Source of the DNA: Candidatus Moraniibacteriota bacterium | GTDB taxonomy: Bacteria; Patescibacteriota; Minisyncoccia; Moranbacterales; DUUL01 | DNA: 35,252 bases | Assembly: GCA_012841575.1 (NCBI GenBank) | Contig: DUUL01000020.1 | Span: 1 to 35,252 of the forward strand | Direction of reading: 5' to 3' | In this document: in pieces, positions 27,062 to 31,894 of the stretch | Position numbering within the stretch: the stretch's first letter is position 1 | How the letters are laid out: each line of letters starts with the position of its first letter | Notes under the pieces: model-generated | Databases searched by the model: none | Seen by the model: the letters and a program-made list of their open reading frames with translations, nothing else | Told to the model about the DNA's origin: nothing | Program-made: the position numbers and the translations under genes

Positions 27062-27132
27062 CGGGCTGTCGTATACCGGTAGTACGCGTGCTTTGGGAGC
27101 ATGTAGACTGGGTTCAATTCCCAGCAGCCCGA
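27062..27132 (+). tRNA. tRNA-Pro (anticodon UGG)
   Basis: The acceptor stem CGGGCTG/CAGCCCG has the C1-G72 pair and A73 discriminator of bacterial tRNA-Pro. The D-stem is GTAT/GTAC. The anticodon stem CGTGC/GCATG holds loop TTTGGGA with anticodon TGG at 27094-27096. The T-arm is CTGGG-TTCAATT-CCCAG. CCA is not encoded (CAA follows). UGG can read all CCN codons, so this is the essential proline tRNA. Confidence 0.96.
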
Positions 27133-27192
27133 CAAAAAAACACTTTTAAAAAAACAAAATAATTTCAGTCCTTAAGCTAAGAAATGTTAACA

Positions 27193-27253
27193 TTGGGAAT
27201 TGAAGGGTGCGGATAAGCACCCAGGCCCAAAGGGAGTTCCCAGCAGCCCGACA
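27193..27253 (+). repeat. tRNA-Pro(UGG) 3'-end copy with an enlarged T-loop
   Basis: TTCCCAGCAGCCCGACA at 27237-27253 repeats 27118-27134, the 3' end of tRNA-Pro(UGG), exactly over 17 nt. Upstream, TTGGGAA (27193-27199) can pair with TTCCCAG. So the T-stem is kept, but the 7-nt T-loop is replaced by about 40 nt containing a perfect hairpin GGGTGC/GCACCC (27205-27210 and 27217-27222). The 11 nt at 27194-27204 are also the exact reverse complement of tRNA bases 27113-27123. The 5' half of a tRNA is absent, so it is not a functional tRNA. It begins 60 nt after the tRNA. A matching design follows tRNA-Pro(GGG). Confidence 0.75.
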
Positions 27254-31559: not shown

Positions 31560-31585
31560 AAAATAGTGACTTGAGTCACTATTTT
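31560..31585 (+). terminator. Terminator of the zinc operon
   Basis: AAAATAGTGAC and GTCACTATTTT pair perfectly over 11 bp with loop TTGA, immediately after the znuB stop. The T-run is short (TTTT), so termination may be moderate. Confidence 0.7.
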
Positions 31586-31684: not shown

Positions 31685-31746
31685 GTCGGACTACCGAGAG
31701 TCGTCCGTCCATTCGGCGGATCAACTACTGTTGAAACTCGGACTAC
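31685..31746 (-). repeat. tRNA-Pro(GGG) 3'-end copy with an enlarged T-loop
   Basis: Read on the minus strand, CGACTCTCGG(T)AGTCCGAC repeats the last 19 nt around the 3' end of tRNA-Pro(GGG) with one change (plus-strand 31685-31703 versus 31778-31796). Upstream, CCGAG (31737-31741) pairs with CTCGG (31694-31698), so the T-stem is kept but the T-loop is 38 nt instead of 7. It includes a CAAC/GTTG hairpin and a CCG/CGG pair. The core TCGGACT(A/G)C occurs three times, at 31686, 31738 and 31779. No 5' tRNA half is present. Confidence 0.75.
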
Positions 31747-31778
31747 GAACCAATACTAGTCTTCTTTCTATTTTAACG

Positions 31779-31849
31779 TCGGACTGCCGAGAGTCGAACT
31801 CGGGCTATACGCACCCCATGCGTACGTACTACCGTTATACTACAGTCCG
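31779..31849 (-). tRNA. tRNA-Pro (anticodon GGG)
   Basis: The acceptor stem CGGACTG/CAGTCCG shows C1-G72 and A73, as in tRNA-Pro. The D-stem is GTAT/GTAC. The anticodon stem TACGC/GCGTA holds loop ATGGGGT with anticodon GGG. The T-arm is CCGAG-TTCGACT-CTCGG. It is 71 nt long, as is the UGG gene, and also lacks encoded CCA. It decodes CCC and CCU. Confidence 0.96.
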
Positions 31850-31865: not shown

Positions 31866-31894
31866 AGCATAGTTTTTAGAGCAATTTTTGTCAA
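31866..31894 (-). promoter_or_regulatory. Promoter of tRNA-Pro(GGG)
   Basis: On the minus strand TTGACA (31889-31894, 6 of 6), a 17-nt spacer, and TATGCT (31866-31871, 4 of 6). The start near 31859 is about 10 nt before the tRNA. Confidence 0.65.

Follow-up and report, generated by a model that had tools for sequence, protein, structure and literature searches.

Behind two tRNA-Pro genes of the analysed window, a 35,252-nucleotide stretch (contig C119) of a 1.0-Mb draft genome that is probably patescibacterial by its size and gene layout, we identified short tails that repeat the 3′ end of the tRNA they follow and that are, on balance, probably RtT-like tRNA-tail elements. Such a tail would be a second, truncated tRNA 3′ part placed behind the intact tRNA, with a compact two-hairpin core in place of the T-loop; T-stem and core would form a three-way junction, and an acceptor-like 3′ strand would stand at the end. 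Tails of the kind behind tRNA-Pro(UGG) recur behind many tRNAs and tmRNA in related genomes.

The tRNA-Pro(GGG) tail and its relatives in the same genome

The 19-nt 3′ end of tRNA-Pro(GGG) is repeated at 31703-31685 with one change and a spacing of exactly 93 nt, as the earlier note on this DNA had described, and the T-stem CCGAG/CTCGG and 38-nt loop that it reported are present (Table 1). The best downstream 20-mer match to this tRNA 3′ end is 18/20, compared with 15 or fewer in 20,000 shuffles of the downstream sequence. The tail corresponds to the variable-to-acceptor part of tRNA-Pro, with two small hairpins splitting the T-loop after TTC, and its acceptor-like strand reads TAGTCCG where the tRNA has CAGTCCG. 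The linker ends in GGTTCG, which bears a faint likeness to the anticodon-to-variable region of the tRNA-Pro 3′ half. Taken alone, the tail has ordinary folding stability (z -1.08). From the sequence, a single transcript spanning tRNA and tail, some 300 nt long, is plausible at most; the weak hairpin at 31584-31562, where it might end, was given no score by the terminator scanner.

Table 1. Features of the two tRNA-Pro loci in the window.
Feature	Position	Strand	Basis
Intact tRNA-Pro(GGG) gene	31778..31849	-	Rfam tRNA, 58 bits
Sigma-70-like promoter TTGACA-17-TATGCT, 5′ of tRNA-Pro(GGG)	31866..31894	-	10/12 consensus matches; consensus match only
Linker between tRNA-Pro(GGG) and tail	31746..31777	-	Sequence
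GGG tail, altered tRNA-Pro 3′ part, TAGTCCGAG-TTTC-(30 nt)-GACTCTCGG-TAGTCCGAC	31685..31745	-	Sequence
GGG tail, T-stem 5′ strand CCGAG	31737..31741	-	Sequence
GGG tail, hairpin A, TCAAC-AGTA-GTTGA, also in the tRNA-Glu tail	31721..31734	-	
GGG tail, hairpin B, TCCGCC-GAAT-GGaCGGA (TCCACC-GAAT-GGgTGGA in the tRNA-Glu tail)	31704..31720	-	
GGG tail, T-stem 3′ strand CTCGG (31698-31694), acceptor-like 3′ strand TAGTCCG, then A	31686..31698	-	
Weak hairpin AATAGTGAC-TCAA-GTCACTATT, then T-run, possible transcript end	31562..31584	-	Read from sequence
Intact tRNA-Pro(UGG) gene	27062..27133	+	
tRNA-Pro(UGG) tail, three-way junction P1-GAA-P2-AGG-P3-P1′, ends in the tRNA 3′ end	27193..27252	+	R2, 62.5 bits

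The tRNA-Pro(UGG) 3′ end is likewise repeated downstream on the same strand, at 17/20 nt, and the two elements are of the same design, as had been claimed. Their loops had also been said to match in size. Measured in the same way they are 38 nt (GGG) and 41 nt (UGG), and loop size varies widely across the wider family.

We found and listed 42 tRNA genes in the genome, nearly all with sufficient downstream sequence. Four of them (Pro-UGG, Pro-GGG, Glu-UUC and Ile-GAU) have their own 3′ end copied behind them, and only at these does the 20-mer at the 3′ end find a downstream match of 17-20/20; the remaining 3′ ends give 8-12/20, with 14-15 only where a real tRNA adjoins. The tmRNA gene is a fifth carrier, so that the genome-wide check proposed in the earlier note, for tRNAs trailed by their own 3′ end, yields further cases at Glu-UUC, Ile-GAU and tmRNA. 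The tmRNA tail (L100, G000:C88:8138-8201) is of the UGG type and ends in the 3′ end of tmRNA itself. The Ile copy is of another form, which begins in the D-loop and has a hairpin at the anticodon arm. At this locus (L006, G000:C19, tRNA-Ile GAU) about 58 nt, from the anticodon arm through the 3′ flank, are duplicated, and in the second copy a hairpin takes the place of the 5′ anticodon-stem strand.

The Glu and GGG tails have the core TTCAACAGYAGTTGATCCRCCGAATGGRYGGACGAYTC in common, with T-stems and acceptor strands that are Glu's and Pro's, respectively. In hairpin B one stem pair differs between them on both sides, a compensatory change from G-C to A-T. Known members of this core are two linked to tRNAs and one orphan. 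The orphan (L055, G153:C10:44140-44172) has the core once, in a locus with no tRNA, about 30 nt behind promoter-like sequence. Exact-core scans of genome contigs and viral contigs gave three isolated matches with neither the second hairpin nor a tRNA-tail context; these apparently arose by chance in coding sequence and were rejected as tails.

Integrative elements classically attach at tRNA 3′ ends. The repeats could accordingly be read as the attL/attR scar of an integrative element that entered at tRNA-Pro and has since lost its cargo, as the repeated segment is the tRNA 3′ end and attachment sites of integrases show a direct repeat of that end, T-loop included, as the tails do. We consider a scar most unlikely because there is no cargo or integrase between the repeats, either here (the gap is only 73 nt, and no reading frame lies between tRNA-Pro(GGG) and its tail) or in relatives. 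The gaps are short, hairpins are conserved in the loop, and, unlike attachment sites, the tails have a conserved structured core that is the same at many hosts, including unrelated tRNAs and tmRNA. Plain integration had been called a poor fit in the earlier note, and these features agree with that assessment.

Distribution, structure and selection

Further examples, which the earlier note had proposed to seek, occur behind tRNA-Pro in related genomes and behind many other tRNAs. When the tRNA-Pro 3′-end pattern was sought in 131 genomes of the order, close same-strand pairs appeared in more than 12 genomes among the matches listed, and the pairs read in relatives included T-loop-insert tails, tandem tails and nested tRNA genes. 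The UGG tail can be aligned with tails of three other genomes (G077, G088 and G120); for these four tails, from three families of the order, RNAalifold predicted a three-way junction in which five pairs are doubly changed. Covariance model R1 identified 34 places in 18 of 124 genomes of the order, and tails were identified in 13 of 380 genomes of a phylum sample. The presence of tails across genomes is patchy. No Rfam family matches the UGG-type tails at the Rfam cut-offs. Rfam sX4 matches in L090 and L091 were set aside, as they overlap tRNA-Ser itself.

Hosts of UGG-type tails include Pro, Ser, Gln, Glu, Leu, Met, Lys, Tyr, Trp, Gly and Ala tRNAs and tmRNA. Tails stand about 30-80 nt behind the intact tRNA (gaps mostly 40-80 nt), and in many tRNAs the T-loop is split exactly after TTC. 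The host T-loop plus T-stem 3′ strand has its reverse complement in the P1 5′ strand, a complementarity that is clearest at the asymmetric T-arms of Gln, Gly, Trp and Leu. Read by eye, several tails also have a 5′ acceptor strand that pairs with the 3′ one, and in L087 and L097 this acceptor pair is unlike the host tRNA on both sides. The claim that each copy fits its own tRNA holds for most of the family: the tRNA of the same isotype is the best match in 31 of 38 elements, with a mean of 13.7/16 compared with 9.0 for other isotypes.

In the alignment of 34 distinct members, pairing is kept in 93.6% of pair cells, and double-changed cells number 98, versus 28.5 in shuffles; slid controls collapse. 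Covariation of this kind, together with conserved core bases, contradicts for the UGG-type family an origin in which tRNA 3′ halves were simply duplicated in tandem and then decayed neutrally. Flank duplications do exist, and one locus (L069) has a 3′ half without a T-loop insert, as such duplication would leave. However, nearly all copies have hairpin inserts at one exact T-loop position, and we regard simple duplication and decay as very unlikely.

Two sister genomes (G116 and G108) have orthologous tails behind tRNA-Ser(CGA). Most of the differences inside these tails are compensatory (first hairpin, G-C to A-T; P2, T-A to C-G; P3, C-G to T-A) and no pair is broken, whereas the sequence behind the tails has diverged. 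Thus, pairing is under selection. G-U wobbles exceed A-C mismatches (11 vs 2), an excess that an RNA read in the tRNA sense should show. We conclude that the tail element is real and probably functional, and not a leftover integration site.

Covariance model R2 gives no match at E <= 1 to the GGG and Glu tails, which lack the three-way junction P1-GAA-P2-MGG-P3-P1′. One common covariance model for both window elements, as the earlier note envisaged, is not supported: the UGG element fits R1 and R2 and the GGG element does not. The GGG tail, which has the shared layout but not the R2 core, is best regarded as a tail of the same kind with a second type of core.

Comparison with RtT

The 178-bp repeats of E. 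coli tyrT (RtT, Rfam RF00391, gene rttR) lie downstream of a tRNA, as the tails do, and end with the 3′ 19 nt of tRNA-Tyr, just as tails end in the 3′ end of the host tRNA. In both, the repeat of the 3′ end is on the same strand (18/20 nt for GGG and 17/20 for UGG). The RtT 5′ strand is complementary to the T-stem 3′ strand and is followed by GAGAAG, the same layout as in tails; the strand GGGGAAGGATGAGAAG is arranged like that of tails, for example GAGGGATGAGAAGG in L090. A hairpin-split T-loop, a repeated tRNA flank and tandem copies are also common to both. However, RtT inserts are longer and are known from tRNA-Tyr and other enterobacterial operons, whereas the tails are shorter and, in distant bacteria with small genomes, follow a dozen types of tRNA as well as tmRNA. 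In the GGG and Glu tails the core also differs from that of RtT.

For the UGG type, each model retrieves members of the other group, the RtT model only below its cut-off. With R2, the four RtT copies were top-ranked in their 1.8-kb region. A pooled 92-kb search, which covered 40 kb around E. coli tyrT, recovered three of them at E <= 0.0061 (E-values are rough, from a short calibration), and the fourth was the sole other match in the 40 kb. Run on 19 tail-bearing genomes, the Rfam RtT model gave six sub-threshold places, four of which are tails (behind tRNA-Tyr, Ser, Met and another Tyr) and two of which are not near tRNAs. None of the window elements reached the RtT gathering cut-off, and this genome has no RtT match at E <= 1. 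Homology of the tails with RtT is likely but not proved, and the scores are low.

According to two papers (PMC4986893 and PMC2965389, citing Bosl and Kersten 1991), the rtT RNA is set free from tRNA transcripts and acts in the stringent response. A comparable course is possible for the tails. They may be transcribed with the tRNA, or by read-through from it, and would be cut off during tRNA maturation to leave a small tRNA-mimicking RNA. The mimic might serve as a decoy or substrate for enzymes that read the acceptor and T-stem, or it might modulate the starvation response, an effect reported for rtT.

The role of the E. coli tyrT repeats is a long-standing puzzle. Now that the same architecture is seen behind many tRNAs and tmRNA in very distant bacteria, with selected pairing and a fit to the host, the puzzle is no longer local and can be approached by comparison: which enzyme recognises the tail, by what process the tail is copied, and whether the supply of tRNA is tuned by it. 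The covariance model can now be used for searching other genomes.

Spread of the tails

Tails are also copied between tRNA genes of one genome, to judge by their sequences. Cores within a genome are alike across isotypes (mean 0.70, n=14) to a greater degree than between genomes (0.52-0.56; 0.56 for the same isotype), a comparison in which the genomes are related by descent, so that the permutation value is not an independent probability. The 3′ flank is duplicated together with the tail in L085 (55/55 nt) and also in L081, L089, L095, L107, Glu and Ile, and tandem tail arrays occur. Because cores are shared within a genome, flanks are duplicated and tRNAs are nested, the tails are evidently spread by some copying process. 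New tails may arise when a tRNA 3′ end is duplicated locally with its flank and the genome-specific core is copied along with it, which would account for the presence of one core with different tRNA-specific ends in the GGG and Glu tails. We saw no phage vehicle, since scans of viral contigs with the UGG-type consensus found nothing; blastn against phages gave no match.

A palindrome, CCTGCCTGCCGGCAGGCAGG, is dispersed in G004, G103, G088, G036 and G104 at 5-18 sites per genome, with none for the reversed control, and was also identified in the T-loops of tails L066 and L071.

Duplicated flanks, tandem arrays, within-genome likeness of cores and the exact T-loop split also speak for a DNA-level miniature element, in which hairpin units would insert into tRNA T-loops and duplicate the 3′ end and flank while leaving the upstream tRNA intact, the fold being kept for mobility and not as RNA. 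The T-loop insert of L066 and L071, a palindrome with up to 18 sites per genome, points the same way. Terminator-like hairpins lie between tRNA and tail in at least 13 of 38 elements, which weakens the case for co-transcription and keeps a DNA-level explanation alive. Nevertheless, R1 and R2 matches on intact contigs lie behind tRNA or tmRNA with few exceptions, and compensatory evolution between the sister genomes points to function after insertion. A link with Y1/REP transposases is absent (11 of 20 tail-bearing genomes and 10 of 20 tail-less ones have them, and PF01797 is absent from this genome). We consider a purely DNA-level element possible but rather unlikely.

REP/BIME sequences are, like the tails, compact repeated hairpins, and in some tails the T-loop contains the dispersed palindrome; attenuator elements similar to rtT have been assigned to BIMEs (PMC2965389). 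Unlike REP/BIME, the tails stay behind tRNAs, have ends that match the host tRNA and show no association with Y1 transposase.

Extending the reading of the window tails as RtT-like elements, we tentatively suggest, with more doubt than confidence, that small tRNA-mimicking RNAs form a widespread class, produced when a tRNA or tmRNA, of whatever type, has its T-stem and acceptor end copied onto a shared structured core directly behind the gene. On this view RtT would be a specialised case, and the GGG/Glu tails would have a second type of core produced by the same process.

Other tRNA loci with inserts were noted. In L074 (G091:C7:16700-19500), L063 and L071 a complete tRNA-Pro lies inside a split outer tRNA-Pro and is flanked by complementary arms, the inserts being 110-120 nt; a literature search found no report of such nesting. 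When one insert is removed from L074, ARAGORN finds a perfect tRNA-Pro(GGG). Read by eye, L067 and L072 resemble these nested loci. In L134 (G120:C60) a tRNA-Tyr missed by ARAGORN is seemingly interrupted by a group I intron-like insert. In L091 (G108:C18) a tRNA-Ser pseudogene lies 5′ of the intact gene and has two palindromic hairpins in its T-loop, between TTC and GAATCCC.
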